Of a DNA stretch of 64,000 nt, positions 3,725 through 22,420 are shown one piece after another. Each line of letters opens with the position of its first letter. Positions within the stretch are counted from its first letter, which is position 1. The DNA is from Gammaproteobacteria bacterium (GTDB taxonomy: Bacteria > Pseudomonadota > Gammaproteobacteria > JAABTG01), in assembly GCA_017999615.1 (NCBI GenBank), contig JAGNLM010000004.1, positions 450-64,449 of the forward strand, written 5' to 3'. The notes beneath the pieces were generated by a model, which was not told the origin of the DNA, ran no database searches, and saw nothing but the letters and a program-made list of their open reading frames with translations. The position numbers were made by a program, and so were the translations under genes.

Positions 3725-4843
3725 ATGGCGATCAGCATACGCGAAGTCGAGACCCGGGCCGACCGCAAGGAATGGGTGCGCTTTGCCTTCGAGCTCTACC
3801 GGGACGACCCGCACTGGGTCCCGCCGATCATCTCCGACGACCACGCCTACTTCGACCCGGATCGAAACCCCGCCTTTGAAGTGAACCGGGCTCGGCGATT
3901 CCTCGCGCAGTCGGGAGGCCGCACCGTCGGCCGGGTCTGCGCCAGCGTCAACGAGCTCGAGGCCGGGAAGCTCGGCCACCTGCGGGGACGCTTCGGGTGG
4001 TTCGAGTCCATCGACGACCCGGAGGTCGCCGGACGTCTCCTGGAAGCCGCCCGCGATTGGCTGCGCGGGCAGCAGTGCACGGAGATGACGGGGCCCCAGG
4101 GGTTCACGGACCTCGATCCGGAGGGACTCCTGATCGAGGGATTCGAGCGCCTGCCCACCATCAGCGGAAGCTACAACCCGCCCTACTACCGGCAGCTCCT
4201 CGAGGGCTTCGGACTCACCCGGGACGCCGACTACATCGAGTATCGCCTGCGCGTCCCGGACGAATCGCCGCTGCTCGAGCGCCTGCGCAAGCGCTACGGT
4301 GGGAACGACCGGTACCGGGTCGTGACCTGCCGGAGCCGCCGCGAGCTGCTCGGACACGCGCCGGCCATCTGGGCGTTGCTGGAAGCCGCCTTCGCCCCGC
4401 TCTACGGGGTGGTACCGCTCACCGACACCCAGCGCGAGTACTACACCCGAAAGTACTTCAACTACCTCGACCCGGAGCTGGTGAAGCTGCCCTTCTCCCG
4501 CGAGGGCGAGCTGGTGGGATTCTTCATCGGCATGCCGGGGCTGAGCCGGGCCCTGCAGCGCGCCCGGGGCCGTCTGCTGCCCTTCGGTTTCCTGCCGATC
4601 CTGCGCGACTACCGCCGCCCGGAGACGGTGGAGTTCCTGCTGGCCGGGGTGAAACCGGGCGAGCCCTCCGCCATCGTCACAGCGGTCACGCTGATCGACA
4701 TGTACGACACGCTGCGCCGGCGGGGCGTGCGCTTCATGGAGACCAACCGCGAGCTCGAGGACAACACCACCGTCAACCGGATCTGGCTCAATTTCGAGCA
4801 GGACTACTTCCGCCGCTCGCGCGTGTACCGGATGCCGGTCTGA
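3725..4843 (+). CDS. GNAT-fold acyltransferase-like protein, candidate bacterial ceramide synthase
   Basis: 372 aa. The N-terminus shows the pattern FELYRDDPHWVPPIISDDHAYFDPDRNPAFE, then FLAQSGGRTVGRVCA, of a widespread proteobacterial family of GNAT-like proteins. To my recollection the ceramide synthase bCerS of Caulobacter belongs to this family; I could not check this. If so, it N-acylates a sphingoid base made by the Spt-like enzyme at 11011-12219. The C-terminal half has a second GNAT-like part ending MDTLRRRGVRFMETNRELEDN. The ATG at 3725 was chosen as the first good start, although its ribosome site is weak. A metallophosphatase and a HIT gene follow closely in the same direction. Family is likely; the ceramide assignment rests on gene context. 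Confidence 0.58.
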   Translation: MAISIREVETRADRKEWVRFAFELYRDDPHWVPPIISDDHAYFDPDRNPAFEVNRARRFLAQSGGRTVGRVCASVNELEAGKLGHLRGRFGWFESIDDPEVAGRLLEAARDWLRGQQCTEMTGPQGFTDLDPEGLLIEGFERLPTISGSYNPPYYRQLLEGFGLTRDADYIEYRLRVPDESPLLERLRKRYGGNDRYRVVTCRSRRELLGHAPAIWALLEAAFAPLYGVVPLTDTQREYYTRKYFNYLDPELVKLPFSREGELVGFFIGMPGLSRALQRARGRLLPFGFLPILRDYRRPETVEFLLAGVKPGEPSAIVTAVTLIDMYDTLRRRGVRFMETNRELEDNTTVNRIWLNFEQDYFRRSRVYRMPV

Positions 4844-4860: not shown

Positions 4861-5844
4861 GTGACGGAACTGGTGCTCGCCCACCTCTCCGACCCGCACC
4901 TCACCCATCTGGGGGAGGTGCGCGGCCGGGAGCTCCTGAGCAAGCGGGTTCTCGGGTACCTCTCCTGGCGCACGCACCGCCGGCACGTGCACCGCTCGGA
5001 GGTCCTGGACGCGCTCCTCACCGACCTGCGCGGCGTCGCCGCAGACCAGGTGGTCGTCACCGGGGACCTCACCCACATCGGTCTGCCCCAGGAGTTCCGC
5101 CAGGCAGCCGCCTGGCTGCCCCGCATCGGCGCACCGGACCGCGTGTTCGTCATCCCGGGAAACCACGACGCCTACCGGTGGGCCCCCTGGTCCGAGACCT
5201 TCGCGCTCTGGGCCCCGTACCTCGCCTCCGACCCAGGGGCTCCGGCGGCGTCCACCGACGGCCGGGCCCCCCTGCCGACCCTGCGCGTGCGCAACGGCGT
5301 GGCCTTGATCGGTCTCAGCACCGCGCGACCGTCCCCTCCCTTCATGGCCACCGGCCGGATCGGACGGGCGCAGCTCGAGGCCCTGGGGGACATGCTCCGC
5401 ACGACCGGGGAGCGAGGGCTCTTCCGGGTGCTGTTGATCCACCATCCCCCGGTGCCCGGCAGCATCCGCTGGCGCAAGCGGCTCACCGACGCGCCCGCGC
5501 TGGGTGCGGTGCTGGCCGAGCGGGGTGTCGAACTGGTGCTCCACGGTCACGCCCACCGCGACTCCCGTCTCTGGCTCCCGACCCCCGCCGGAAGGGCCCC
5601 GGTCATCGGCGTGCGGTCCGCATCAATGCACGGCCCGGACGCGGCGCGGCGCGCCCAGTACCATGTGTTCCGTATCTCGCGCCGGGGGCGAGGCTGGAAC
5701 GTGCGCCTCTCGGTGCGGGAATACGCGCCCGAGGAGCACCGCTTCACCCCGGTGGGCGCGTGGGAGGTGGACTCGCCCGGCCCCCGGGAGAGGGGCACAG
5801 ACAGCGACAGGGAGAAGGAGATGGAGACGGAGACGGAGACATGA
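4861..5844 (+). CDS. Calcineurin-like metallophosphoesterase
   Basis: 327 aa with all metallophosphoesterase motifs in order: LSDPHLTH near residue 9, VVTGDLTHIG, PGNHDAY, LLIHHPP and LHGHAHRD. These bind two metals and cleave phosphomonoesters or diesters. The start is GTG at 4861, 17 bases after the bCerS-like gene. The end overlaps the HIT gene by ATGA, so the two are translationally coupled. The C-terminal tail DSDREKEMETETET is low-complexity and encoded by GGAGAC hexamer repeats. Substrate unknown. In the lipid island it could act on a nucleotide-linked or phospholipid intermediate (like LpxH or a phosphatase of UDP/CDP-linked lipids), which is inference. Confidence 0.85.
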   Translation: MTELVLAHLSDPHLTHLGEVRGRELLSKRVLGYLSWRTHRRHVHRSEVLDALLTDLRGVAADQVVVTGDLTHIGLPQEFRQAAAWLPRIGAPDRVFVIPGNHDAYRWAPWSETFALWAPYLASDPGAPAASTDGRAPLPTLRVRNGVALIGLSTARPSPPFMATGRIGRAQLEALGDMLRTTGERGLFRVLLIHHPPVPGSIRWRKRLTDAPALGAVLAERGVELVLHGHAHRDSRLWLPTPAGRAPVIGVRSASMHGPDAARRAQYHVFRISRRGRGWNVRLSVREYAPEEHRFTPVGAWEVDSPGPRERGTDSDREKEMETETET

Positions 5845-6275
5845 ACGAGACCATTCGCCGGTTCGGCTACCCCGCGACCCTCATCCGGGAGTATCCCGAC
5901 TGGGTCGTCCTGCTGCGCCCCCGGCAGGCCACCCTGGGGACGCTCGTGGTCGCCTGCAAGGACGACGTCCTGCGGCTCTCCGACGTGTCCCTCGACGCCT
6001 TCGCCGCGCTGAAGCAGGTGGCGGTCGACGTGGAGACGACCCTGCGTGCCGAGTTCGACTGCCAGCGCATCAACTACCTGATGCTGATGATGGTCGACCC
6101 GCACGTCCACTGGCACGTCCTCCCCCGCTACCACAGCCCGAGGACCTTCGCCGGCATCACGTTCCCGGACCCCGGCTGGCCAGCCCTGCCGGACCTCTCC
6201 TTCGCGACCCCGACCGAGCCGGGCGTGCAGGCCGCGCTGGTGGAGCGTCTGCGGGCGGCGTGGCCGAAGAGCTGA
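5841..6275 (+). CDS. HIT family hydrolase/transferase
   Basis: 144 aa. The histidine triad is at residues 88-92 in DPHVHWHVLPRY (H-V-H-W-H-V), the signature of nucleotide hydrolases and transferases such as Hint, Fhit and GalT relatives. The length fits a single HIT domain. It overlaps the metallophosphoesterase stop (ATGA at 5841-5844), so it is coupled to it. A pyrophosphatase-type HIT enzyme such as Cdh (CDP-diacylglycerol hydrolase) would fit a lipid-nucleotide pathway, but the sequence does not prove substrate. Confidence 0.85.
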   Translation: MNETIRRFGYPATLIREYPDWVVLLRPRQATLGTLVVACKDDVLRLSDVSLDAFAALKQVAVDVETTLRAEFDCQRINYLMLMMVDPHVHWHVLPRYHSPRTFAGITFPDPGWPALPDLSFATPTEPGVQAALVERLRAAWPKS

Positions 6276-9273: not shown

Positions 9274-10995
9274 TTACGCAAGAGGTCGCGCTCCGGAAGC
9301 CGCGAATTGTCCCACGGGCATGGGTACCAACGCCCCGTCTTCCAACCTCACCACCCGGTCCGCGATCTCGGCCAGCCCCGTCTGGTGCGATACGGCCAGC
9401 ATCGTCACCTCGCCCCTCAACCGGGCCAGCGTCTCGCACAACGCCGCCTCGCTCGCAGGGTCCAGCGCGCTGGTCGCCTCGTCGAGGATCAGGAGCTTCG
9501 GGCGGCGGACCAGCGCCCGGGCAATGGAAATGCGCTGGCGCTGACCACCCGAGAGCATGCTGCCCCGCTCACCGACGGTCGTCTGCATCCCTTCCGGCAT
9601 CGCACTCACGAACTCCCACGCCCCGGCTGCGCGCAACGCTCGCTCCGCGTCGCCCTCGGTGAGGTCGGGGTCACCCAGGATGACGTTGTGCAGCACGCTC
9701 TCGTGCAGCAGCAGGGTCTCCTGGGGAACGTAGCCGATCATCCGGCGCCACGCCTGGAGGTTGCACTCGCCCAGGGCAACCCCGTCCAGCGTCAGTCGGC
9801 CGGACGTGGGCTCGAGCAGACCGGTCACCAGGTCGAGGATGGTCGTCTTCCCCGCACCCGAAGGCCCCACGATCGTGGTGAAGGAGCTCGCTGGAAGCCT
9901 CAGGGTCAGGCCGCGCAGGATGGGCCGGTCGCCGAACGCGAAGTGCACGTCCTCGAGGGCCAGTTCGCGCTCGAACACCGGTGTACAGCCGTGGGGCTCG
10001 GCCTCAGGCGACCCCTCCGCTCGGTCGATGGTGCCCCGCAGCGACCAGTAGGCGCTCTCGTTGACCGACATCTTCTGATATTCGTGCTGCAGCTTGCCCG
10101 CGAGCTTCAGCACCCGCAGCAGGAGCAGCATCAGGACCACGACGCTCGCGAGAGGCAGGCCCCAGACGTTCACCACCAGGTAGGCGGCGCCAGCGACGAA
10201 GGCGATAGCCACGGGCTCGTGGATCGCCCGCAGGCCCTCGACGCTCAGGACCTCCTTGCGCATCGCCTTGTTCATGCGTCGCGTCTCCGCCTCCAGCACC
10301 ACGTTGGCCCCGCCCGCGAGCCCCATGGTCTTGAGCGCCTTCACCGACTGCAGCGTGTCCGCCATGCGCCGCAACAGCGACACGAGCACGTCCGTCTGCC
10401 GGCGCCCGGCGCGGCGGGCCTTGCGCACCAGCCGCCCCAGGGAGAGCGTGATGGCCGCCCCCCCCAGCACCGCCGCGAGCGTGGCCTGCCAGGACACGAA
10501 GAGGGCAGCGACCGTGTACACCAACGTCTCGACGGCGTGCGCGAGCGCCCGTGCGCCGCTCAGATAGGCGTTGGATGCGCGCACCGTCTCCGTGGCCATC
10601 GCGTTGGCGAGCGAGCCCACCGGCTGATGCAGGAAGAACTCCCAGCGGGCGCGCAGCAAGGCACGCAGCAGCCGCAGGCGCAGGTCGGTGCCGATCTGCG
10701 CCACCGTGTACCCGACGTGGCGATTGGCCAGCAGCACCATCGCGGCCTTCAGGCTGACGCCGACGACGATGATCAGCAGCAGCGGCCCGAGGGATGGGTC
10801 GATGCCGAGGCCGTGGAGGAACTTCCCCAACCCACGCTCGCTCTGCCCCCCACTCTCGGCGTTGGCCGCAAGGTCCAGGATGGGGAACAGCGCCGACAGG
10901 CTGATCCCCTCGAACACACCCGCCACCAGAAGGGCGACCAGGGTGACCAGCGTGCGCCGGGGGTAGGCCCGGGCGATCTCACGGAGGAATCTCAT
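9274..10995 (-). CDS. ABC exporter, fused membrane and ATPase domains (MsbA-like)
   Basis: 573 aa half-transporter. The N-terminal ~310 residues hold about six hydrophobic helices (LVALLVAGVFEGISLSALFPIL is the first). The ATPase domain follows with Walker A GPSGAGKTT, the signature LSGGQRQRISIARAL and Walker B LLILDEATSALD. The last residues contain the His switch (LAVSHQTGLAE). This is the architecture of exporters of lipids, peptides or drugs. It lies 15 bases downstream of the Spt-like gene on the same strand, so it is probably in its operon. Flipping a sphingolipid or glycolipid product is a reasonable guess but unproven. Confidence 0.85.
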   Translation of the reverse strand: MRFLREIARAYPRRTLVTLVALLVAGVFEGISLSALFPILDLAANAESGGQSERGLGKFLHGLGIDPSLGPLLLIIVVGVSLKAAMVLLANRHVGYTVAQIGTDLRLRLLRALLRARWEFFLHQPVGSLANAMATETVRASNAYLSGARALAHAVETLVYTVAALFVSWQATLAAVLGGAAITLSLGRLVRKARRAGRRQTDVLVSLLRRMADTLQSVKALKTMGLAGGANVVLEAETRRMNKAMRKEVLSVEGLRAIHEPVAIAFVAGAAYLVVNVWGLPLASVVVLMLLLLRVLKLAGKLQHEYQKMSVNESAYWSLRGTIDRAEGSPEAEPHGCTPVFERELALEDVHFAFGDRPILRGLTLRLPASSFTTIVGPSGAGKTTILDLVTGLLEPTSGRLTLDGVALGECNLQAWRRMIGYVPQETLLLHESVLHNVILGDPDLTEGDAERALRAAGAWEFVSAMPEGMQTTVGERGSMLSGGQRQRISIARALVRRPKLLILDEATSALDPASEAALCETLARLRGEVTMLAVSHQTGLAEIADRVVRLEDGALVPMPVGQFAASGARPLA

Positions 10996-11010: not shown

Positions 11011-12219
11011 CTAGGGAGCCCCCGTCCCCCCCGCCTCCCCCGCGATCGGCCGCAGGGCGAGGAAGGCCGCGAGGATGGCGTCGACCTGCTCCGGCGTGTG
11101 GGCCGCGCTCAGGCTGCAGCGCAGCAGGCAGGCCCCCGAGGGCGTGGCGGGCGGAAGGATCAGGTTGACGTAGACACCGCGCGCCAGCAGGTCGTGCCAC
11201 CAGACCAGCGCCTGCTCCTGGCTTCCCACCTCCACCGCCACCACCGGGCTCGGCTGGGGCCCCAGCCGGAAACCGGCGCCCGCGAGCCCGTCGTAGAGGT
11301 GATGGACGTTGCGCCAGAGGTGCTCGCGCAGTTCCTCGCGCTCGCGCAGGATGCGCAGGGCGACGCGGGTCGAGGCGATGACCGAGGGCGCGGGCGAGGC
11401 GGTGAAGATGTAGGAGCGCACCGCGTTGCGCATCAGGTCGAGCTCCGGGTGGCGGCTGACGCAGAACCCCCCGACCGAGCCGAGGCTCTTGCTGAAGGTG
11501 CCGACCACGAGGTCGACGTCGTCCTCCACGCCTGCCTCCTGGCAGAGGCCCCGCCCGGTCGCCCCGAGCACGCCAAGCGAGTGCGCCTCGTCCACGAGCA
11601 GACAGCCTCCCAGCTCCCGCTTGACCGCCGCCATCTCGGCGAGCGGGGCGCGGTCGCCGAGCATGCTGTAGATGCCCTCCACCACGATGAGGGTGCGCTC
11701 CGCCCTCTCGCCCAGCCGGCGCAAGCGCTTCTCGAGGTCGGCCGCCTCGTTGTGCCGGAAACGGACCACGTCGGCCCCGCTCAGGCGCGTGCCCTCGTAG
11801 ATGCTCGCGTGGCAGTCGGCGTCGAGGAGGATCGTGTCGCCCTGTCCTGCCAGGGTGCTGACGACCCCCATCGTCGCCAGGAAGCCGGTGGAGAACACGA
11901 CGGCGGAGGGTACCCCGTAGAATTCCGCGAGCTCGCGCTCGAGCGCCAGGTGGCTGCCATACGTGCCGTTCGCCATGCGCGAGCCGGTGGTTCCGGTGCC
12001 CTGCTCCGCCACGGCCCGCTGGGCGGCCTCGATGCATTCGCGCTCGAAGGTCAATCCGAGGTAGTTGTTGGTGCCGGCCAGGATCACCCGCCGGCCCTCG
12101 ATGAGGCCCTCGGTGGCCGAGACGATCCGCTCGGTCACCACGCCGATGGGCAGGGTACCGAACGCCGCGAGCTGGGCCCGGGTGGCCGCGAGCGGCTGGA
12201 ATTTCTCGAATAGCTTCAT
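11011..12219 (-). CDS. spt: Serine palmitoyltransferase-like alpha-oxoamine synthase
   Basis: 402 aa PLP enzyme of the alpha-oxoamine synthase family (AONS, KBL, HemA, SPT). Conserved residues: GTGTTGSRMANGTYGSH at 74-90, VDEAHSLGVLG with Asp210 and His213, and TFSKSLGSVGG with the Schiff-base Lys244. Alone, sequence cannot separate SPT from BioF. No other biotin genes are nearby, while the neighbourhood is acyl-ligase, ACP, reductase and lipid kinase, so serine palmitoyltransferase (first step of ceramide synthesis) is favoured. The ATG at 12219 has GAAGGGG about 10 bases upstream. The gene is divergent from the LptF-like gene and precedes the ABC exporter. Confidence 0.7.
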   Translation of the reverse strand: MKLFEKFQPLAATRAQLAAFGTLPIGVVTERIVSATEGLIEGRRVILAGTNNYLGLTFERECIEAAQRAVAEQGTGTTGSRMANGTYGSHLALERELAEFYGVPSAVVFSTGFLATMGVVSTLAGQGDTILLDADCHASIYEGTRLSGADVVRFRHNEAADLEKRLRRLGERAERTLIVVEGIYSMLGDRAPLAEMAAVKRELGGCLLVDEAHSLGVLGATGRGLCQEAGVEDDVDLVVGTFSKSLGSVGGFCVSRHPELDLMRNAVRSYIFTASPAPSVIASTRVALRILREREELREHLWRNVHHLYDGLAGAGFRLGPQPSPVVAVEVGSQEQALVWWHDLLARGVYVNLILPPATPSGACLLRCSLSAAHTPEQVDAILAAFLALRPIAGEAGGTGAP

Positions 12220-12297
12220 GGCAGGGGCCCCTTCACCGCGTCGGTGGCGGTAGCATACCGTATCCCTGACACCCCACCACGTACTCCTGAGCCTGCG

Positions 12298-13395
12298 TTG
12301 ATCGCGACCCGGTACATCGCCCGCGAGATCTATCAGCCCTTCCTGGCGGTGGTGACGGTGCTGCTGGTGGTCTTCGCCGTGTACACCACGGCCATCGTCC
12401 TGAACGACGTGGTGGCGGGCGCGCTTCCCGCCCACGTCGTCCTGCGCCTGGTGCTGATCAAGTCGCTCATCGCGCTGGAGGTCCTGCTGCCCGTGGCGTT
12501 CTACTTCAGCGCCGTCATCGGGCTGGGGCGCCTGCACGCCAGCTCGGAGATGCTGGCGCTCGCCGCCTGCGGGATGGGGGAGCCCCGGGTACTCAGGACC
12601 GTCCTGCTACCCGCCTTCGCCGTCGCCTTGCTGTCAGCCGTACTCTCGGTGAGCGTGCGGCCCTGGGCCTTCCAGCAACTCTATGTGCTGAGGGCCGTGG
12701 CCGACGCCGAGTTCGACATCGAGGACCTGGAGGCAAAGCAACTCTTCGTCAGCCCGGACTCGCGCTATGCCGTCTATGCGGTGTCGGTGGACCACGCGGC
12801 GCGCAGCGCCCACGACGTGGTCGCCCAGATGCGCAACGGGGAACGGCTGCTCGTGATCGAGGCCGAGAGCCTCCATCAACCTCCGCAGCGTCTCGAGGAC
12901 AGCCCGGTCTTCGAATTCTCGCGGGGCCGGGCCTTCCGCATCGACCGCCGGGGGACGCGCGACACGACGATGGACTTCGGGGTGCTGACGGTGCGGCTCG
13001 AGGCACCGGAACCCCCGGAGATCGGCTACAAGATCAAGATGCAGAGCACGGCGGCCCTGAGTCACGCCACGGCAGGCAAAGGACTCGCGGAGTTCCAGTG
13101 GCGCCTCTCCACGCCGGTGTTGACGCTCCTCCTCGCCGCGCTCTCGGTACCCCTCAGCCGCGCACCCCCGCGCCGAGGCCGGTTCCTTGGCCTGGTGATC
13201 GCGATGCTCGCCTTTGCCCTCTTCTACGCCCTGCTCCTCAGCGCCAAGAACCTGGTCCACGACCGGCTGGTGGGCCCGGTGCCCGGCCTGTGGTGGCCCA
13301 TCGCGCTCCTCGCGCTGACGGTCCTCGCCCTGCTAGCCTGGCCCTGGGTCCGGCGCCGCTGGCACCCGCGATCTGCCTCACCCGCCTATGGCTGA
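12298..13395 (+). CDS. LptF-like permease
   Basis: 365 aa, LptF/LptG (YjgP/YjgQ) family. It has N-terminal membrane helices starting at IATRYIAREIYQPFLAVVTVLLVVFAVY, a periplasmic beta-rich domain in the middle (about residues 130-260) and C-terminal helices from LSTPVLTLLLAALSVPL. In the Lpt machine such pairs extract lipid A from the inner membrane. A TTG start at 12298 is chosen because it gives the usual LptF opening (MIxxRYIxREI); a GTG at 12244 is the alternative. It overlaps the next gene by eight bases. Adjacent spt suggests it may extract a sphingolipid rather than LPS, but it could be the organism's general lptF. Confidence 0.8.
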   Translation: MIATRYIAREIYQPFLAVVTVLLVVFAVYTTAIVLNDVVAGALPAHVVLRLVLIKSLIALEVLLPVAFYFSAVIGLGRLHASSEMLALAACGMGEPRVLRTVLLPAFAVALLSAVLSVSVRPWAFQQLYVLRAVADAEFDIEDLEAKQLFVSPDSRYAVYAVSVDHAARSAHDVVAQMRNGERLLVIEAESLHQPPQRLEDSPVFEFSRGRAFRIDRRGTRDTTMDFGVLTVRLEAPEPPEIGYKIKMQSTAALSHATAGKGLAEFQWRLSTPVLTLLLAALSVPLSRAPPRRGRFLGLVIAMLAFALFYALLLSAKNLVHDRLVGPVPGLWWPIALLALTVLALLAWPWVRRRWHPRSASPAYG

Positions 13396-14485
13396 CGGGC
13401 GCGGGTCCACGCCGCGCGTCACTCTGATCGACCGCTACGTCGGCCGTACGGTCCTCGGCGCCCTCGTGCTCGTGCTGCTCGCGCTCCTCCCGCTGTTCAC
13501 CATCCTCGACCTGGTCCAGCAGCTCGACGAGGTGGGCAAGGGCAACTACGGCTTTCTCGACGCGGTTCGCTACGAGCTGATGGTGCTCCCGCGCCGGGCG
13601 CTCGACCTGCTGCCGTTCCTCGTCCTCACGTCCACCACCATCGGGCTCGCGATCCTCTCTCACTTCGGCGAAACCATGGCCATGCGCTCCTGCGGCGTCT
13701 CGCGGCGCCGGCTCGGGCTCGCGGTGGTCAAGGTCGGGCTCGCGCTGATGGTGCTGGCAGCCCTCTCCGACGAATTCGTCGCCTCGCCCCTGAATCGGCA
13801 GGCCACCCGGGAGCGGGCCGTTGCGCTGGAGGGTCGGGAGGTGCTGCTCAGCGAGGACGGCTTCTGGATGCACGCCGGCTCCCGGTTCGTCAGCATCGGC
13901 CAGGTGCTCCACGGCCGCCTGCCCCAGGAGATCGACATTCTCGAGGAGGCCGAGGACGGCCACCTGCAGCGATTCGTCCACGCGCGCGAGGCCGACATCG
14001 CGAACCCCAGGTGCTGGCTGCTGCGGGACGTCATGGTCAAGCACCTCGGCCCGGGGGCGCCCCTCTCCGAACGGATGGAGGAGCTCCCGTGGGACTCCTA
14101 CCTGTCGCTGAAGCAGGTCGAGATGCTGCAGCTGGAGCCCCATGTGATGTCGCCGGCGCAGCTCTTCGGCTATGCGAGGTATCTGGAAAAGACCGGTCAG
14201 AACCCGGCCCGTTACGAGATGGCGTTCTGGCAGAGGGCCACCTTGCCGCTCGTGACCAGCGCCATGGTCCTGCTCGCCCTGCCCGCGGGCTTCGGCCGGC
14301 CTCGGTCGTCGGACACCGGCAAGCTTGTCCTGTTGGCGGTTGCCGTGGGTCTGGCCTTCCAGGTCGTCAGCCAGCTCGCGGCAAACGCCGGGCTGGTGTT
14401 CTCCATCCCGGCGCCGGTGGTGACCCTCGGGCCGCTGCTGCTCGTCTTCGCGGGGGCCTTCTGGCTGTTGCGCAGGGCCGGCTGA
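13388..14485 (+). CDS. LptG-like permease
   Basis: 365 aa partner of the LptF-like protein, YjgP/YjgQ family. It opens with TLIDRYVGRTVLGALVLVLLALLPLFTILDLVQQLDEV, the usual LptG start. A periplasmic domain follows (about residues 120-255) and final helices (LPLVTSAMVLLALPAGFG; VGLAFQVVSQLAANAGLVF). It overlaps the LptF-like stop by eight bases, so the pair is coupled. LptB, LptC and LptA are not nearby. It is convergent with the Tam41-like gene across a 35-base gap that carries a tRNA-like sequence. Confidence 0.82.
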   Translation: MADGRGSTPRVTLIDRYVGRTVLGALVLVLLALLPLFTILDLVQQLDEVGKGNYGFLDAVRYELMVLPRRALDLLPFLVLTSTTIGLAILSHFGETMAMRSCGVSRRRLGLAVVKVGLALMVLAALSDEFVASPLNRQATRERAVALEGREVLLSEDGFWMHAGSRFVSIGQVLHGRLPQEIDILEEAEDGHLQRFVHAREADIANPRCWLLRDVMVKHLGPGAPLSERMEELPWDSYLSLKQVEMLQLEPHVMSPAQLFGYARYLEKTGQNPARYEMAFWQRATLPLVTSAMVLLALPAGFGRPRSSDTGKLVLLAVAVGLAFQVVSQLAANAGLVFSIPAPVVTLGPLLLVFAGAFWLLRRAG

Positions 14486-14520: not shown

Positions 14521-15531
14521 CTACCGGAAGGCACCGCGCCGATACAGGCGCCAGGCGAGCCCCCAACCGTAGATCAGCGGGTGACGGCGCTCGCGCTCCG
14601 AGGCCTCGACCCGCACGCCCGAGTGGCGCTCGAGCTTCCATAGGAGGTAGTCGACCCCACCCTGGAAGGTGAATGCCGACTTCGCAAGGCGCAGCGCCGA
14701 CAGGGTCTTGCCCTGGACCCGCCGCGCGGACCAGGCCAGCCGGCTCCGCCGCCGGGTCCGCGGCGGTATGCTGGCCTCGTGCAGGGGAATGCTGGCCTCG
14801 CCCATCGAGCCCCCCTCTCCGGCGACGCTGCGCACGGGCCAGGCCAGCACGCCCAGGGCGGGCGCGGTGACCTCCCGGTAATACTCCGGGTCGCTCTCGA
14901 CGATCAGGGCACTGCGCTGGCTCTTCTCGGCCCGCAGCTCCGTGGCGTAGCTGAGGGCGAGTGCCCGTTCCCAGAGGTCCGCCTCCGTGAAGCGCTCGGG
15001 CAACGCCGGCAGGGCCCGCCAGAGCAGGGTGACCACCGCCTGCCCCAGGGCCTGCAGGAGCTCTCCCCTCACCCGCTCGTCCGCAGCGTAGAGGATCGCC
15101 GTCGGCTGGGCCAACCGGCCCCACAGGTACGACTGGAACCAGCGTGCGGAAGTCCCCCGGAGCAGGTGGCGCATGGAGAACACGGCGTACTTGCACCGCA
15201 CCCGCCCGGCCGGGACTGGCACTTCGAGGTAGAACACGTTCGGGGGCAGCAGCGCGTTCGCGAGGGCCGTGAGGGGATCGCGGTACGCCGAGCGGTAGCG
15301 GTCCACCACCACGTACAGGTCCACGAGCCCGTCCAGGGCGTTGCCCGAGCGCAGGCAGGAGCCGTAGAAGAGGATGCCGCGCAGCGCCGGGCCATACCTG
15401 CGCCGAAGCGCCTCGCGCAGGGCACCGAGCTCCGTCCCGGGCACGTGGCGCGAGGCCAGCCGAACGAGCGCGGCGACGAGGCCCGTTCCCGGCGCCGGCG
15501 GGCTAGAAGCGGAGGAAAGCGACCCTTCCAC
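14521..15531 (-). CDS. Tam41-like nucleotidyltransferase (putative CDP-lipid synthase)
   Basis: 336 aa. Residues 54-77 hold a polymerase-beta-type active site: FYGSCLRSG (G57-S58) followed by Asp71 and Asp77. Further on, Lys114 in KYAVFS and SYLWGRLAQP at 134-143 match the segments that mark the Tam41 family, the mitochondrial CDP-diacylglycerol synthases. This is my reading by eye. In the family the reaction is CTP + phosphatidic acid giving CDP-diacylglycerol. Here the gene follows a lipid kinase and a CDP-alcohol phosphotransferase in one operon, so a ceramide phosphate could be the acceptor instead. The start is GTG at 15531, overlapping the kinase gene by 29 bases. Protein class is likely; substrate is inferred. 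Confidence 0.6.
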   Translation of the reverse strand: MEGSLSSASSPPAPGTGLVAALVRLASRHVPGTELGALREALRRRYGPALRGILFYGSCLRSGNALDGLVDLYVVVDRYRSAYRDPLTALANALLPPNVFYLEVPVPAGRVRCKYAVFSMRHLLRGTSARWFQSYLWGRLAQPTAILYAADERVRGELLQALGQAVVTLLWRALPALPERFTEADLWERALALSYATELRAEKSQRSALIVESDPEYYREVTAPALGVLAWPVRSVAGEGGSMGEASIPLHEASIPPRTRRRSRLAWSARRVQGKTLSALRLAKSAFTFQGGVDYLLWKLERHSGVRVEASERERRHPLIYGWGLAWRLYRRGAFR

Positions 15532-16510
15532 CCACCGACACCCGCACCGGTCCCGCCTTCCGCGACGCCTGGTAGACCTCCCCGTCCACGGTCACGGGAC
15601 CGTCCATCTCCAGGCTGAGACTGTCGAGCTTCCCGCTGTGGTAACCGTGCTCCGGCGTGGCGAACCGCCCTGCACGCCCCCAGAAGAGAGGGAGCAGCGT
15701 GCGCGCCGCGTGGCCAGCACGCGCCCTCAGCCGGCTGTGGTAGAAGGCACCCTCGGCGTCTCCCCAGTAGGGGCGAAGCCCTGCGAACAGTCGCTCGAGC
15801 GAACTGGCCAGCACCAGGAGATAATCCTGTTCCTGGTCTTCCTCCTCGCCGCCCGCCTGTTCCCTGGCCACGCGTCCCGCGACCGTCATCGGCCGGGGCG
15901 AGGCGTACCGCTCGTCACCGCGGGCCATCGCCCAGAGAACCCGCAGGGTGCAGAGGGCCGGGGCAAGGCTGTCCCGCAGACCCCGGCTGTGAACCCTCCG
16001 GTGGCAGAACTCGATCCCCCGGACGATGGCGCCGGTCCCGAAGAACATCCCGAACTGGGCTGGGCCCTCGGGGCTCACGTCGACCCGGAGCACGGGCCGC
16101 TCGACGAGCGTGCCCTCCAGCTCGCCCGACGGGTCCAGGAGCCGGCGCAGCGACGGCAGCAGGGCCTCCCTCGACCCGACGTCTCCCGCCGTCATGTTGG
16201 TCGTACCCCCGCGCAGCAGTACGAGCAGGGGCAGCCGGGGAAACGGCCCCTCGAGCAGGAGCGTGGTGAGCACTGCCGCCACGGTCCCGTCGCCGCCGTT
16301 GACCACAAGCAGGTCCGGCGGGTCGGCTCGCATCTCCCTCAGCGCCTCGGAGACGGCCCGCTGGCCCCGGGCCTCCCGGTACACGACGCCCGATCGCGCC
16401 GACAGCAGCGCCCGCACCTCTGCCAGGTGTCGACGGTTACGGCCGCTCTCGGGATTGGTGACGCAGGCGAGGCGCAGCGGCCGGCGCAGTCGGATGGGCT
16501 GGTCGGCCAC
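15503..16510 (-). CDS. Diacylglycerol/ceramide kinase-like lipid kinase
   Basis: 335 aa with a DAGK catalytic domain. The NGGDGT motif at residues 71-76 after LLVV binds ATP, and the C-terminal beta sandwich ends with a TVDGE-like segment (MDGPVTVDGEVYQ). Members phosphorylate lipid alcohols, diacylglycerol or ceramide. The ceramide kinase CpgB of Caulobacter is of this type by recollection. The start is GTG at 16510, 15 bases after the CDP-alcohol phosphotransferase stop. Between spt-associated genes, ceramide is the favoured substrate but diacylglycerol or undecaprenol cannot be excluded. Confidence 0.7.
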   Translation of the reverse strand: MADQPIRLRRPLRLACVTNPESGRNRRHLAEVRALLSARSGVVYREARGQRAVSEALREMRADPPDLLVVNGGDGTVAAVLTTLLLEGPFPRLPLLVLLRGGTTNMTAGDVGSREALLPSLRRLLDPSGELEGTLVERPVLRVDVSPEGPAQFGMFFGTGAIVRGIEFCHRRVHSRGLRDSLAPALCTLRVLWAMARGDERYASPRPMTVAGRVAREQAGGEEEDQEQDYLLVLASSLERLFAGLRPYWGDAEGAFYHSRLRARAGHAARTLLPLFWGRAGRFATPEHGYHSGKLDSLSLEMDGPVTVDGEVYQASRKAGPVRVSVGGRVAFLRF

Positions 16511-16525: not shown

Positions 16526-17755
16526 TCAGCTCCGGCCCCCGTTCGGGGACCGGGCCCCCCCGCCAGCGAACCAGCGCACCGCCAGGGAGCGGTCGGTCGG
16601 GTCCTTTCCGGCGCCTTCGAGCCAGGAGACCAGCGGCCCCACGGAGGCGCGCTCGCGGTAGGCCATCGCCAGACGAGCCAGAAGGAACGCCGCGGACAGC
16701 AGGGTCCAGAGGGTCACCGCCTCGAGCCCCAGGTCGGGCCGGCCCGCCAGGGCGCCCAGGGTGAGCAGGATGAGCGAAGGGTTGCGGCGCGCGGTGACGA
16801 GGCGCGAGTAGGAGTCGACCTTGCGCCAGCAGAAGATCCCGAAGCGCCCGAGCCACTGCTTGAAGGCCCCCTCCGTCAACCGCCCGAGGATGTAGCCCAC
16901 GAAGAGCAGCCAGACCGTTACCTTGACGGACGCCGGCAGCAGCAGCGGCTGGTAAGAGGACAGGCCAACGGCCCAGGCGAGATACCAGAAGGGGGGAGAG
17001 ATCAGGTCCAGGATGTGGTCGAAGAAGTGACCGAACGTGCTGGAGGTCACGGTGACCCGCGCGAGCTTACCGTCCACGGTGTCCAGATAGGTCATCAGCC
17101 AGGCGAGCGCCAGCCCCCACCCGAAGTGGCCGTACCCGAACAGGAACAGGACCACAGTCGCGAGGGCCCAGTTGAGCGCCGTGACCTGATTGGGCGTGAT
17201 GCCCCAGTGGGCGCAGAGGCGCACACCCCACTGGGCAGGCACTGGCCAGACGAAGCGCGTCACCAGGTCCGTGATGCCCTTGTAGGCGGCGCCAAAGAGG
17301 AGCCGCTCCAGTTCGGCCCGCGACCCCTCCGTGATGGGGAGCACGAACGGCGGGTCCGCCTTGCGCAGACGCTCCTGGAAGGCAGGCGTCAGATCGTCCG
17401 CGGAGACCGTGCGCAGACCCCCCGGAAGGGGCTCCCCGGCGCCCCGGGCCTGCAGGCGCGCCGCCACCTCCCGGGCCAGGGCGCCCGGCACGTGCGCGGC
17501 CACGGGGATCGCCTCTTCTCCCACGCCCGCCCGCAGCACGGTGCCGGGGGCGTCGGTCAGCGCCCACAGCGTCCGGGCGTCCATCAGATAGTCGCCCCGC
17601 AGCAGGAGAACCGTGTCGCCGGCCGGAACCTGGGCCAGGCTGTCCACGAGGGCGAGGCTGCCCTTTCGGCGCATGAGCCGGCGCACCCGCTCGCGCAGGG
17701 ACAGGTCCCAGAGGCGGACCGGCGTCTCGTCGAGGATGTGAATGACGGTGGCCAT
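16526..17755 (-). CDS. CDP-alcohol phosphotransferase with N-terminal degenerate nucleotidyltransferase-like domain
   Basis: 409 aa. The CDP-alcohol phosphotransferase signature D-x2-DG-x2-AR-x8-G-x3-D-x3-D is complete: Asp225, Asp228, Gly229, Ala232-Arg233, Gly242, Asp246, Asp250. Several membrane helices follow. It would move a phosphoalcohol from a CDP-linked donor to an acceptor alcohol. Residues 1-165 form an extra soluble domain (MATVIHILDETPVRLWDLSLRER..., LLLRGDYLMDARTLWAL). It recalls nucleotidyltransferases such as those fused in IPCT-DIPPS enzymes, but the GxGTR loop is absent, so it is probably not catalytic. ATG at 17755 is one base after the ACP stop. Head group unknown. Confidence 0.72.
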   Translation of the reverse strand: MATVIHILDETPVRLWDLSLRERVRRLMRRKGSLALVDSLAQVPAGDTVLLLRGDYLMDARTLWALTDAPGTVLRAGVGEEAIPVAAHVPGALAREVAARLQARGAGEPLPGGLRTVSADDLTPAFQERLRKADPPFVLPITEGSRAELERLLFGAAYKGITDLVTRFVWPVPAQWGVRLCAHWGITPNQVTALNWALATVVLFLFGYGHFGWGLALAWLMTYLDTVDGKLARVTVTSSTFGHFFDHILDLISPPFWYLAWAVGLSSYQPLLLPASVKVTVWLLFVGYILGRLTEGAFKQWLGRFGIFCWRKVDSYSRLVTARRNPSLILLTLGALAGRPDLGLEAVTLWTLLSAAFLLARLAMAYRERASVGPLVSWLEGAGKDPTDRSLAVRWFAGGGARSPNGGRS

Positions 17756-17756
17756 G

Positions 17757-18008
17757 TCAGCCCGCCCCTTCGACCAGCCGGTCGATCTGCAGGGCCAGGT
17801 CCCGGACCGTGCGCACGTCCGGCAGCACGTTCAGCGGCACCGTGATGTCATAGCGGTCCTCGACGTCCATCAGCAGCTCCATGATCTTCAGGGAACTGAG
17901 GTCCAGGTCCGCCGTGAGGTCGGTGTTCTCGTCGATGACCTGGCCTTCCGGGGCGAAGGGCCGCAGGATTTCGAAAAGGGCCGAGCAGACTTCCGCGTGC
18001 GTGGGCAT
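17757..18008 (-). CDS. Acyl carrier protein, atypical DSL motif
   Basis: 83 aa acyl carrier protein. The phosphopantetheine site is LTADLDLSSLKIMELLMDVE, with Ser39 as attachment residue. The usual Asp before it is Ser38 (SSL instead of DSL), which sets it apart from fatty-acid-synthase ACP. The start ATG at 18006-18008 follows AAGGAG closely. An ATG at 18032 is possible but has no ribosome site. It is followed directly by the CDP-alcohol phosphotransferase. In the ceramide locus it would carry the acyl chain loaded by the ligase at 19074-20885 to the acyltransferase. Confidence 0.85.
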   Translation of the reverse strand: MPTHAEVCSALFEILRPFAPEGQVIDENTDLTADLDLSSLKIMELLMDVEDRYDITVPLNVLPDVRTVRDLALQIDRLVEGAG

Positions 18009-18097
18009 GGCTCCTTGACCGCCTGTGTCCATACGAATGTGATGTTAGCGGGTTTCGCGCGAACCGCCCCGCGCCAGCGCGCGCGGGCCCTGCGGGC

Positions 18098-19108
18098 TCA
18101 CGCCCCACCCTCCGGGGTTCCCGGGGCCAGGGTACGTTGCAGCCCCTCGGAGAACTCGACCTCCGGCCGCCAGCCCGTTGCTGCGCTGAAGGGCGCGTTG
18201 TCGCAGACCCAGTCGGGGTGGCCCAGCTCCCGGACCTTGCCGGGCGTCAGCATGGGCACCGCCCCGAAGAGCCGGGCCCGCGCGGCGTTCACGCGGGCCG
18301 CCCAGGCGAGCAGCGCGGTCGGCACGCTCAGAAGGCGCACAGGGCGACCCCTGAGACGGGCGGCGATCCCGGCGGCCTCGGGCCACGAGTAGCCTCCGGG
18401 ACGGCCGTCGTGGAGCTCGAAGGGCCCCTCCGGCGCGGCATCCAGGTGCAGCAGACGCTCGACCGCCGCGACGAGGTCGTCCACGAAGAGCAGCGAAAAT
18501 CGCCCGCTCCCGTTCCCCGGTGCCAGGGCGAGGCCGCGCATCATCATGCGCAGCAGCGGGCGCATCTCCCGGTCGCCCGGCCCGTACACGGCCGACGGAC
18601 GAAGCACGACGCGCCGCAGCCCTGCGCCCGCCGAGGCCAGGGCCTCCTCCCCCGCGCGCTTGCTCGCCGCGTACGGGGAGAGCCCCGGCTCCCGCGCGGC
18701 CAGCGACGACAGCTGAACGAAGAGCGGTGCGGGATGGGCATTCGCCGCCGCCCGCGCGAGGTGGAACACCCCTTCGACGTTGGCGGTCCGGAAATCGGAA
18801 TCGTCGAGCCCCCGCACGGCACCGGCGCAGTGGACCACGGCCCGGGCGCCGTCCACCAGGCGGGCGAGGCTCTCGGGCTGGGCCAGGTCGCCAGGCACCC
18901 ACTCGATACCGGCCCGGCGCAGCCCCTCCGGGCGGGACTCCCCGCGCACGAGGGCCCTGACGAGCCAACCGCGGGCGGCGAGACGGCGCGCCGCCGCACC
19001 GCCGATGAAACCGGTCGCGCCGGTGATGGCGACGACCGACGCCTCCGGGGCCACCTCGCTCAAAGCGAAGGGATCAGGCGACGCGCAGGGCGCCCGCCGC
19101 CCCTTCAC
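18098..19108 (-). CDS. NAD-dependent epimerase/reductase, CerR-like
   Basis: 336 aa extended SDR. The Rossmann loop is GATGFIG at residues 30-36 and the catalytic pair is Tyr146/Lys150 in YAASK. In ceramide loci such an SDR reduces the 3-keto group of ceramide or the sphingoid base (CerR). The GTG at 19108 overlaps the preceding gene by 35 bases and has GAAGG upstream. A GTG at 19054 would leave the usual short N-terminus and cannot be excluded. The role is inferred from neighbours; sequence alone also fits sugar epimerases or hydroxysteroid-type reductases. Confidence 0.68.
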   Translation of the reverse strand: MKGRRAPCASPDPFALSEVAPEASVVAITGATGFIGGAAARRLAARGWLVRALVRGESRPEGLRRAGIEWVPGDLAQPESLARLVDGARAVVHCAGAVRGLDDSDFRTANVEGVFHLARAAANAHPAPLFVQLSSLAAREPGLSPYAASKRAGEEALASAGAGLRRVVLRPSAVYGPGDREMRPLLRMMMRGLALAPGNGSGRFSLLFVDDLVAAVERLLHLDAAPEGPFELHDGRPGGYSWPEAAGIAARLRGRPVRLLSVPTALLAWAARVNAARARLFGAVPMLTPGKVRELGHPDWVCDNAPFSAATGWRPEVEFSEGLQRTLAPGTPEGGA

Positions 19109-20885
19109 CGGCCTTCGCGTCCCCGGTCCGGGGAGCCGCGGCGGCCTGCTGGCCGCGCGAATCGATGAAGTTCTGGCGGGCCTTGGAGCGCGAGAGCTTG
19201 CCCGAGGAAGTCCGTGGCAGCGTCTGGGGCGGCACCAGCTCCACGTGACACTCGATGCCGAACTCCGAGCGCACGAGACCCTCGAGCCGCTTGACCAGGT
19301 CCGCCCGGACCGCGGGGTCCGTGTCGCGGTTCTGCACCACCATCATGACCCGCTCTTCGTCGTCGGACCAGGGCACCGAGAACGCCAGGCAATCGCCCGG
19401 ACGCACCTCCGGCTGCTGGTGGGCCAGGTACTCGAGGTCCTGGGGCCAGACGTTGCGTCCATTGACGATCATCAGGTCCTTGCTGCGACCCGTCAGGAAC
19501 AGGTTCCCTTCCGCGCGGTAACCGATGTCGCCGGTGTTGAGCCAGCCGTCCGGCGACAGGGTTTCGCTCGTCGACTGGGGGTCCCGGAAATAGCCCGACA
19601 TCACGCTGGGGCCCCGCAGGAAGATCGTGCCGGTCGTCCGGTCACCGAGGGGCTGCCCGCTCTCGTCCCGGACCTCCACCTCGAAGTCCGGTATGGGCGC
19701 ACCGCAGTTTACGAACGTGCTGATGCGCGCGGGGGACGCGTCCTCGTCGGAACCGGCTGCGACCGCCTTCCCTTCAACGGCGAGCCGCTCGCTGTCCACG
19801 CGGTCCACGGACACCCCGGTGCCCAGGGGCGAGAAACTCACCGCCAGGGCGCACTCGGCCATTCCGTAACACGGCAGGAAGGCGCCCGGATCAAAGCCGC
19901 TGGGTGCCACGGCCTCGGCGAAACGCTGGAGCACCTCCGGGTGGATCATCTCCGCGCCGACGCCGGCGACTCGCCACGCGCTCAAGTCGTAGTCCGCTGC
20001 CTCGCCCGGACGCAGGCGCCGGGCACAGAGCTCGAAGCCGAAGGGCGGGCTGAAGGAAATCGTGGCCTTCGACCGGGACAGCAGGCTGAGCCACTGGCGG
20101 GGACGCATGGCGAAGTCCCGTGTCGCGAGGTAATCGACCGAGACCTGCCCCGCCACGGGAGTCAGCACGAGACCGACCAGGCCCATGTCGTGATAGAACG
20201 GGAGCCAGGAGACCGCCCGGTCGCCGGGGCGCAGTTTCACGCCGTGGCGGATGATTCCCGCCAGGTTGCTGAGGACCGTTTCCTCGGTGATGGCGACACC
20301 GCGGGGGAACCGCGTGCTCCCGGAGGTGTATTGCAGGTAGGCGAGCTCACCGGGCCCCGATGGGACCAGCTCGTCCGTGCTCTCCGGCAAGGCGTCGAAC
20401 ACCGACGGCTCGCCCACGAGCCGCAGGTCCAGGTCCTGCGCCGCCTCCTTGAGGTATTCGAGGAATCCTGCAGGCGACATGGCCAGCGCCGCGGCCGAGC
20501 TCTCGAGCATGCCCCGCAGCAACTGCACGTAGGCGTTGTGGCTGCCGAGGCTGACATGCACCGGCACCGGCACCGGCACCAGGCCCACGTACTGGCACGC
20601 GAAGAAGAAACGCAGGAAATCCGGGGAGGTGTCCGCGACCAGGACGAGCCGGGACCCGCGCTCCAACCCGAGGCTCGCCAGCCGGCGTGCCAGCAGGAGC
20701 GCCTCCTCGCGCAAGCGCGAATAGGGCAGAACCGCCGTCAGTTCGCCGCGGGCCGAGTAGAAATTGCACCCCGTCTCGCCCAGCGCTGCGTAATCCAGCG
20801 CCTCCGCGAGATTCGTGAAGTCGGCAGCCCGAAAGGGCAACCGATTCATGGTCGGCGTGGGTCTCTGATCCGAGGATGCGCCCAT
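19074..20885 (-). CDS. Fatty acyl-AMP ligase / acyl-ACP synthetase (AasR-like)
   Basis: 603 aa, adenylate-forming enzyme of the FAAL/acyl-ACP synthetase class. Motifs: YTSGST at residues 186-191, YGMAECALAVSF, NTGDIGYRAEGN, and GRNVWPQDLEYLA (with the invariant hinge region). These activate a fatty acid as acyl-AMP and transfer it to CoA or a carrier protein. The neighbouring unusual ACP suggests acyl-ACP as product. The gene is first in a minus-strand operon of six. ATG at 20885 is used; the ATG at 20849 is alternative. A CACCGG run around 20560 encodes VPVPVPVHV. Assignment to ceramide synthesis is contextual. Confidence 0.78.
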   Translation of the reverse strand: MGASSDQRPTPTMNRLPFRAADFTNLAEALDYAALGETGCNFYSARGELTAVLPYSRLREEALLLARRLASLGLERGSRLVLVADTSPDFLRFFFACQYVGLVPVPVPVHVSLGSHNAYVQLLRGMLESSAAALAMSPAGFLEYLKEAAQDLDLRLVGEPSVFDALPESTDELVPSGPGELAYLQYTSGSTRFPRGVAITEETVLSNLAGIIRHGVKLRPGDRAVSWLPFYHDMGLVGLVLTPVAGQVSVDYLATRDFAMRPRQWLSLLSRSKATISFSPPFGFELCARRLRPGEAADYDLSAWRVAGVGAEMIHPEVLQRFAEAVAPSGFDPGAFLPCYGMAECALAVSFSPLGTGVSVDRVDSERLAVEGKAVAAGSDEDASPARISTFVNCGAPIPDFEVEVRDESGQPLGDRTTGTIFLRGPSVMSGYFRDPQSTSETLSPDGWLNTGDIGYRAEGNLFLTGRSKDLMIVNGRNVWPQDLEYLAHQQPEVRPGDCLAFSVPWSDDEERVMMVVQNRDTDPAVRADLVKRLEGLVRSEFGIECHVELVPPQTLPRTSSGKLSRSKARQNFIDSRGQQAAAAPRTGDAKAGEGAAGALRVA

Positions 20886-21097: not shown

Positions 21098-22420
21098 TCA
21101 AGCCGGATTCGCCTCGAAATCGACAGATACCTCGTGGATACCCTTTCGCCCGAGGAGGGAATTATAGTCGGTCGGGGCCAGCCGCAACGCCAGGATGAGG
21201 TCCATCACGTTGGTGCCGGTCATGCCCGTGTGGATCAGGTCACCGCTCGCCTCCAGGAAGTTTCCGGCATCGGCCCGGTCGAGGCAGTCCTCCGGTGAAA
21301 GGCCGGCGAGGGTTCCCCGCGCCACCGTGCCGCCGTCCACCACCGCCCCCGCGTCCTCGCTCGACCCATCGCGCCCGTCGGTTCCTGCGGCGAGCAGCAC
21401 GACGTCGGGTGACCCCGCGAGGACCATCGCCGCGGCGAGAGCCAGGGTCTGGCAACGCCCCCCCCGCCCGGGCGTGGGGGGCAGGCGCACGGTGGTCTCA
21501 CTGCTCCAGATCTGCAGCCCGGGAGGGCTCGCGAGGATCCGCTCCGCGATCCGCACACCGGCCTGGCGGGCATCGCCCACCAGTGGCTCTGCGTGCCGCT
21601 GCACCGCGTAGCCGAGCCGGCGGCCCCGGTGGGCGGCGACGAACCGGGCGTGGGCCCCTGAGGCGACCACGGCGTGGCGCAAACCCCTGAAGGACTCCTC
21701 CGGTGCCGGGGGTAGCGACCCTGCCACCAGGTTCTCCAGCCACTGCGGGAGGACGATCCCGCGACCGTCAAGGTCCGCTGCCCCATGGGGGACGACCAGG
21801 CCGGAGCCGATGCTTGCGAGCTCGTCACCGGGGACGTCCGCCATCACCAGATGAAGCGCGGGCCTCCCGCGCAGCCCGGCCGCGAGGCGCCCCCCTTTGA
21901 TGGCGGACAACGCCTTGCGCACTCGGTTGACCGCGTGGATCGGCAGGCCCGAGGCCAGCAGCCAGCGGGTGGCTTCCCGCAGGGCATCGAGGGATACGCC
22001 GGGGGCCGGAAGCTACACCAGGCTCGAGGCACCGCCCGAGGTGAGGAACAGCAGGCTGCCCTCCGGGGGGATCTGGGCCAGTGCCTGCACCACGGCCTTG
22101 CCTGCCGCGACACTGCGCTCGTCCGGTACGGGGTGCGGGGCCTCGAGGCACCGCAGGCCGGGAAGCCCGGAGGGATGCTCCGCGCACGCGCCTTCAGGGG
22201 CCACCGCGAGCGCACCGGCGACCGCGGGGCCCAGGGCGTCCAGGGCCCCCTCGAGCATGGGGACCGCCGCCTTGCCCACCGCGACCACGTGGACCGGCGG
22301 CACCAGGTGCGCCTGGCGAAGGTATTCACGGACCCGGCGCCGGCCATCCACGGCCGCGAGCGCGGCGCGATAGAGCCCCAGCAACTGCCGGCGGGCCGTC
22401 TGTAGCGCTGCAGCGGCCAT
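21098..22420 (-). pseudogene. Glycerate 2-kinase (MOFRL family) interrupted by an in-frame TAG
   Basis: The frame from ATG 22418-22420 to 21098 would encode about 440 aa, typical of the MOFRL-type glycerate kinases that phosphorylate D-glycerate to 2-phosphoglycerate. Residues before the break include HVVAVGKAAVPMLEGALDAL and LLFLTSGGASSLV. A TAG at 22013-22015 follows, and then LPAPGVSLDALREATRWLL continues in the same frame up to VDGGTVARGTLAG, TGTNVMDL and the end. Glu (GAG) is expected at this place, so a single base change is probable. Start and purF stop share TGATG, so it is coupled to purF. A GTG restart at 21922 could give the C-terminal half. Inactivation, or a sequencing error, cannot be told apart here. 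Confidence 0.75.

Follow-up and report, generated by a model that had tools for sequence, protein, structure and literature searches.

A Tam41-fold CpgC orthologue beside a ceramide kinase in a gammaproteobacterium: a probable CTP:ceramide-1-phosphate cytidylyltransferase

Phosphosphingolipid synthesis in a gammaproteobacterium probably draws on a soluble enzyme of the Tam41 family, encoded in a 64,000-nucleotide stretch of contig JAGNLM010000004.1 (positions 450 to 64,449; assembly GCA_017999615.1), hereafter the window. The gene (positions 14521-15531, minus strand) starts with GTG and encodes a putative cytidylyltransferase of 336 amino acids, which a Pfam match, an AlphaFold model and the gene order of Caulobacter identify as a Tam41-family orthologue of CpgC (CC_1161). 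We put at roughly two in three the probability that this protein is a CTP:ceramide-1-phosphate cytidylyltransferase, with a soluble Tam41 fold, that makes cytidine diphosphate ceramide (CDP-ceramide). For a protein of Tam41 fold that receives its substrate from a lipid kinase, the simplest role is that of a cytidylyltransferase joining cytidine triphosphate (CTP) to a lipid 1-phosphate, and on this basis we infer the donor (CTP), the acceptor (ceramide-1-phosphate) and the product (CDP-ceramide). A sequence-only reading had previously taken the protein for a Tam41-like, second type of cytidine diphosphate diacylglycerol (CDP-DAG) synthase; its observation is confirmed and its interpretation partly supported.

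The three motifs singled out in that reading—FYGSCLRSG (residues 55-63, numbered throughout from V1 at the GTG start), KYAVFS (114-119) and SYLWGRLAQP (134-143)—are all present in the open reading frame (ORF), and the family membership that it proposed was upheld by a profile search, in which PF09139 (Tam41_Mmp37) matched with 43.0 bits (cut-off 24, E-value 4.9e-11) over profile positions 83-207 of 322. This was the sole Pfam match given by hmmscan, which returned none to PF01148 (CdsA); a confident place in another nucleotidyltransferase family was looked for and did not emerge. S. pombe Tam41 (SpTam41) was the only protein of solved structure matched confidently by sequence. The copy in a congener is 87% identical and differs at 29, 23 and 51 first, second and third codon positions, respectively, a concentration at third positions that indicates a conserved gene. 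When public genomes were scanned, related loci turned up in several phyla, at least 575 in total.

An AlphaFold model built from 50 homologues (mean pLDDT 87.8, pTM 0.86) was compared with solved structures using VIA-align and Foldseek. In VIA-align, the model was closest to a Firmicutes Tam41 crystallised with CTP and magnesium (7ecd; Z 18.9 over 229 residues, root mean square deviation 3.0, 17% identity), followed by S. pombe Tam41 (6ig2/6ig4; Z 17.0 for 6ig4 and 16.9 for a second match, over 224-227 residues, 18-19% identity), the comparison that had been suggested as a check; Foldseek likewise ranked Tam41 entries first. That the protein is some other nucleotidyltransferase of the superfamily, modifying aminoglycosides or proteins and lying in the operon by chance, is hardly credible: the aminoglycoside (kanamycin) nucleotidyltransferases are the next structural family, but at Z 7.2 over about 117 residues they fall far below Tam41, and the linkage of the gene is conserved across several phyla. 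The model therefore points to a Tam41 fold that extends beyond the generic nucleotidyltransferase domain. No transmembrane segment was predicted in the protein (maximum KD19 1.23). The model does contain a basic amphipathic C-terminal helix (residues 257-288, positions 14668-14763, minus strand), recognised by its net charge of +10 and its moment, and a similar membrane anchor has been described at the C terminus of SpTam41 (PMC7018664). We regard this helix as the putative membrane-contacting part of a protein predicted to be soluble and membrane-peripheral.

Conservation was judged over 31 diverse and 50 closer homologues, which show little or no variation at G57, S58, D71, K114, R139, Q142, Y195, E198, R200 and E202. 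Two aspartates, at 71 and 77, had been proposed as family marks. The first is present in 31/31 diverse and 50/50 closer homologues and completes the GS...D active-site motif of Tam41 with its single conserved acid; just 10 of the 31 diverse homologues have Asp at position 77, which is thus not a conserved catalytic residue, and D77 is ruled out as a second catalytic Asp. Both solved canonical Tam41 enzymes carry RFQKP and SYxGDxRM, followed by AENPxKVENIV, whereas the CpgC-type family has the signature RFxQP and AELRxE in place of RFQKP and GDxRM. Because Gln and Glu stand family-wide where the canonical enzymes have Lys and Asp, we treat these proteins as a distinct branch rather than filing them as canonical CDP-DAG-synthase Tam41; on the sequence evidence, the replacements could mean that the lipid substrate is new or the chemistry altered. 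Loss of catalysis, leaving a scaffold or a CTP or lipid sensor for the ceramide kinase, would fit the Lys-to-Gln change and the presence of only one invariant acidic residue in the nucleotidyltransferase motif, but is most improbable given that all the residues listed above, Q142 aside, are invariant or nearly so in all homologues.

The gene is coupled to ceramide kinase and serine palmitoyltransferase. Across 398 evenly sampled Pseudomonadota genomes—for which Fisher p values treat genomes as independent, although related genomes are not—the Tam41-like gene occurred in 27 and a ceramide kinase in 29, the kinase being present in 27/27 genomes with the Tam41-like gene and adjacent to it in 26 (p 7e-40). 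Serine palmitoyltransferase was above cut-off in 36 genomes, including 26 of the 27 (p 1.6e-31). The ten genomes with serine palmitoyltransferase and no Tam41-like gene are as expected if they make non-phosphorylated sphingolipids only. The Pfam Tam41 profile exceeded its cut-off in only one of the 398 genomes, that of the window. Among 101 loci read, all 85 with an ORF assigned to a ceramide kinase had it immediately upstream and on the same strand, the pair mostly overlapping or at most 20 bp apart, and there were further loci in which the choice of ORF hid the kinase. Fusion of the Tam41-like gene to the ceramide kinase or to CpgA was ruled out, the long ORFs being N-terminal over-extensions in GC-rich DNA.

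To relate the gene to Caulobacter, the published NA1000 primer (PMC12275187) was used to locate cpgD and the surrounding regions were then read; because only some of the NA1000 primers fit the genomes used, these count as close relatives and not certainly as NA1000 itself. The order found (CpgD, CC_1153, CerS, LptG, LptF, HIT protein, phosphoesterase, CpgA, CpgB, Tam41-like protein, serine palmitoyltransferase, acyl carrier protein, CerR, fatty acyl-AMP ligase) agrees with the published run from CC_1152 to CC_1165, which makes the Tam41-like gene CC_1161, that is, CpgC. Its sequence (33% identity) and its position next to CpgB make the window gene orthologous to C. crescentus CC_1161/CpgC (CCNA_01219); gene order and partners are the same and the host differs, the window coming from a gammaproteobacterium whose cluster is otherwise full. 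A Pfam scan gave no match for the Caulobacter protein, so the window protein ties the family to Tam41 more clearly.

Genetic work in Caulobacter frames the likely reaction. CpgB is a ceramide kinase that makes ceramide-1-phosphate (PMC10331486); CC_1161 and CC_1160 are required for ceramide-phosphoglycerate (CPG), with CC_1159, CC_1158, CC_1153 and CC_1152 acting later, and loss of cpgC abolishes both CPG and ceramide-diphosphoglycerate (CPG2) (PMC11324152). CpgC is thus genetically required for the conversion of ceramide-1-phosphate to CPG, the mechanism of which is termed unidentified in papers from 2025 and 2026. Olea-Ozuna et al. (2024; PMC11324152), pointing to an InterPro domain of CDP-DAG-synthase type in CC_1161, raised the idea of a nucleoside diphosphate (NDP)-activated ceramide. 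In the published working scheme, CpgC itself attaches glycerate or phosphoglycerate to ceramide-1-phosphate, which would make the nucleotide transient and CDP-ceramide at most enzyme-bound. This scheme gains from the finding that cpgC and cpgB are the sole cluster genes needed for CPG (PMC11324152), from the lack of another known CPG-forming enzyme and from the absence of CpgA from several genomes that keep the Tam41-like gene. We nevertheless think it unlikely, because the Tam41 fold is that of a CTP:lipid-phosphate cytidylyltransferase, for which no second transfer activity is known, and because Olea-Ozuna et al. judge direct attachment energetically not very favourable (PMC11324152).

A bacterial Tam41 had been considered unexpected, a claim that falls to the CTP-magnesium crystal structure of the Firmicutes protein (7ecd) and to its CDP-DAG synthase activity as reported in the citation of Kimura 2022 by PMC11646218; bacterial occurrence is therefore no novelty in itself. 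The same precedent lends some weight to a true CDP-DAG synthase, placed in the operon either to balance lipid pools or to provide CDP-DAG as the donor when ceramide headgroups are exchanged: the family and fold are shared, and the closest fold match belongs to a family reported to make CDP-DAG. Several findings make this improbable, if a little less so than direct attachment by CpgC. CdsA is encoded elsewhere in the window's genome—which also has PgsA, a PgsA-like protein and PssA—so that CDP-DAG can be supplied without need of the 14521-15531 protein. Co-occurrence with the ceramide kinase is perfect in the 398-genome sample, the published cpgC phenotype is the loss of CPG and CPG2 (PMC11324152), and the canonical Tam41 residues are replaced family-wide. 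Of the claim of a second-type CDP-DAG synthase in a lipid operon, the Tam41 type thus survives and the substrate is probably wrong, the operon being one for phosphosphingolipids in which a CpgC orthologue lies by a ceramide kinase.

If the protein is a ceramide-1-phosphate cytidylyltransferase, the CpgB-type kinase encoded just upstream would make ceramide-1-phosphate, and the 14521-15531 protein, docked on the cytoplasmic face of the membrane through its basic C-terminal helix, would move cytidine monophosphate from CTP onto this lipid, yielding CDP-ceramide and pyrophosphate. CDP-ceramide would serve as the activated lipid for the first (phospho)glycerate headgroup, giving CPG, and CpgD and CpgA would then add the second to give CPG2.

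Several points weigh against this assignment. The Pfam Tam41 match extends over only some 40% of the model, and the Lys of RFQKP and the Asp of GDxRM are replaced by Gln and Glu in all homologues. A whole-genome search and an ORF scan of the loci found no CpgB-type kinase in five genomes with the Tam41-like gene (G003, G004, L059, L120 and L121, all outside the 398-genome sample) and ruled out an annotation slip; in these, either another kinase serves or the substrate differs. We know of no dedicated CDP-ceramide-consuming enzyme, and a search of open papers found none joining CDP-ceramide with bacteria. Of ten genomes searched that carry the Tam41-like gene, six lack CpgA, which leaves this protein unsupported as an obligate consumer of CDP-ceramide, and Caulobacter makes CPG without it (PMC11324152).

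CpgA and CpgD behave as a module of their own. Of the 23 long loci that include CpgA, 19 had CpgD near the gene, as against none of 29 without CpgA (p 1e-10), and this joint presence, apart from the kinase/Tam41-like pair, mirrors the division of CPG genes from CPG2 genes in Caulobacter genetics (PMC11324152). The CpgA/CC_1159 orthologue of the window (16526-17755, minus strand; PF01066; 38-39% to Caulobacter) has a degenerate N-terminal nucleotidyltransferase-like domain, which Pfam does not detect, and a CDP-alcohol phosphotransferase domain with an intact DxxDGxxARx8Gx3Dx3D motif; its overall fold is like that of AF2299 (Z 22.9). At two Nitrospirales loci (L066:7656-12336 and L067:7677-12395), two CpgA paralogues flank the kinase/Tam41-like pair, the second directly after the gene, and this second paralogue may hint at a CpgA that uses the presumed product of the Tam41-like enzyme, CDP-ceramide.

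The surrounding genes of the window form a complete CPG2 phosphosphingolipid cluster. Beyond the Tam41-like gene, and overlapping it by 29 bp, lies the CpgB-type ceramide kinase (15503-16510; DAGK_cat, PF00781; 31% to Caulobacter CC_1160), followed past CpgA by an acyl carrier protein in the AcpR/CC_1163 position (17757-18032; PF00550, Caulobacter gene order) and, both assigned by comparison with Caulobacter, a short-chain dehydrogenase/reductase-type ketoreductase orthologous to CerR/CC_1164 (18098-19108; PF01370) and a fatty acyl-AMP ligase orthologous to AasR/CC_1165 (19074-20885; NF006624, 805.9 bits), all on the minus strand. On its other side, two permeases on the plus strand, placed by gene order as LptF2-like (12244-13395, CC_1156 position) and LptG2-like (13388-14485, CC_1155 position), sit between the Tam41-like gene and a minus-strand serine palmitoyltransferase, the CC_1162 orthologue (11011-12219; NF047599, 620 bits, cut-off 500; 58.6% to Caulobacter). 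Next to this is an MsbA-like ATP-binding cassette transporter, a putative flippase (9274-10995, minus strand), recognised by profile matches and with a weak Caulobacter match outside the Caulobacter cluster.

The remaining members lie near the start of the window and, except for the second, on the plus strand: the CpgD/CC_1152 orthologue, a COG1213-like nucleotidyltransferase (2060-2830; 48-49% to Caulobacter); the CC_1153 orthologue, a MobA/CofC-like nucleotidyltransferase (2827-3651, minus strand; PF12804, 39%); the bacterial ceramide synthase CerS/CC_1154 (3725-4843; 26%, E ~1e-32); a calcineurin-like phosphoesterase, the CC_1158 orthologue (4867-5844, start not fixed; PF00149, 42-43%); and a HIT-domain protein in the CC_1157 position (5841-6275; PF01230, 48%). 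The literature terms the HIT gene CC_1157 ‘probably unrelated’; it is nevertheless retained in the clusters of Caulobacter, Nitrospirota and gammaproteobacteria. A DUF4147/MOFRL glycerate 2-kinase-like gene (21098-22405, minus strand) lies 212 bp upstream of the acyl-AMP ligase and contains one in-frame TAG (22013-22015). A functional copy could be a source of 2-phosphoglycerate, which CpgD prefers as substrate; as a standard cluster member it was ruled out, the window copy having no counterpart in the other loci read.

Outside the window, an ELM1-family gene (PF06258) stands beside the kinase/Tam41-like pair in Roseovarius and related loci (L091:10839-12065, L100, L095, L112 and L115), and a fatty acid hydroxylase (PF04116), possibly a ceramide hydroxylase, recurs at L081:1417-2151 and 19 other loci. 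The clusters at L141, L157, L059, L120 and L121 carry the Tam41-like gene but no CpgB-type ceramide kinase, and a search of the whole genomes found none either.

Besides CpgC, four known systems can be set against the window protein. Firmicutes Tam41 (7ecd) is bacterial and has the same fold, but carries RFQKP and GDxRM and is reported to be a CDP-DAG synthase. Mitochondrial Tam41/TAMM41 shares the Pfam family and an architecture of nucleotidyltransferase domain, second domain and basic C-terminal membrane part, but acts on phosphatidic acid in the cardiolipin pathway and has other residues at two conserved sites. CdsA catalyses the same type of reaction, between CTP and a lipid phosphate, but is an unrelated protein with multiple transmembrane segments, separately present in this genome. 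CpgD is a CTP-dependent cytidylyltransferase of the same pathway, but has a COG1213 fold and acts on phosphoglycerate.

Bacterial Tam41, the gene family itself and the NDP-ceramide idea of Olea-Ozuna et al. (2024) were already known; the present analysis adds evidence from the fold, a residue signature, orthology that reaches across phyla, coupling to ceramide kinase at the level of whole genomes and the occurrence of the pair without CpgA.

The CPG pathway lets Caulobacter live without lipopolysaccharide and sets its polymyxin sensitivity. CDP-ceramide is, to our knowledge, a liponucleotide without an established biological role; if our assignment is true, it would become a real metabolite in the step from ceramide-1-phosphate to CPG, and a function would be assigned to a family that spans Pseudomonadota, Desulfobacterota, Nitrospirota and other groups, numbers at least 575 loci and has nearly all its members missed by Pfam. 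With slightly more reserve, we also think it probable that a large, multi-phylum branch of Tam41 makes CDP-ceramide, so that phosphosphingolipids would be built by a kinase, cytidylyltransferase and CDP-alcohol logic parallel to that of glycerophospholipids, with a cytidylyltransferase of Tam41 rather than CdsA type. This would provide a bacterial setting for Tam41-type chemistry other than cardiolipin synthesis.
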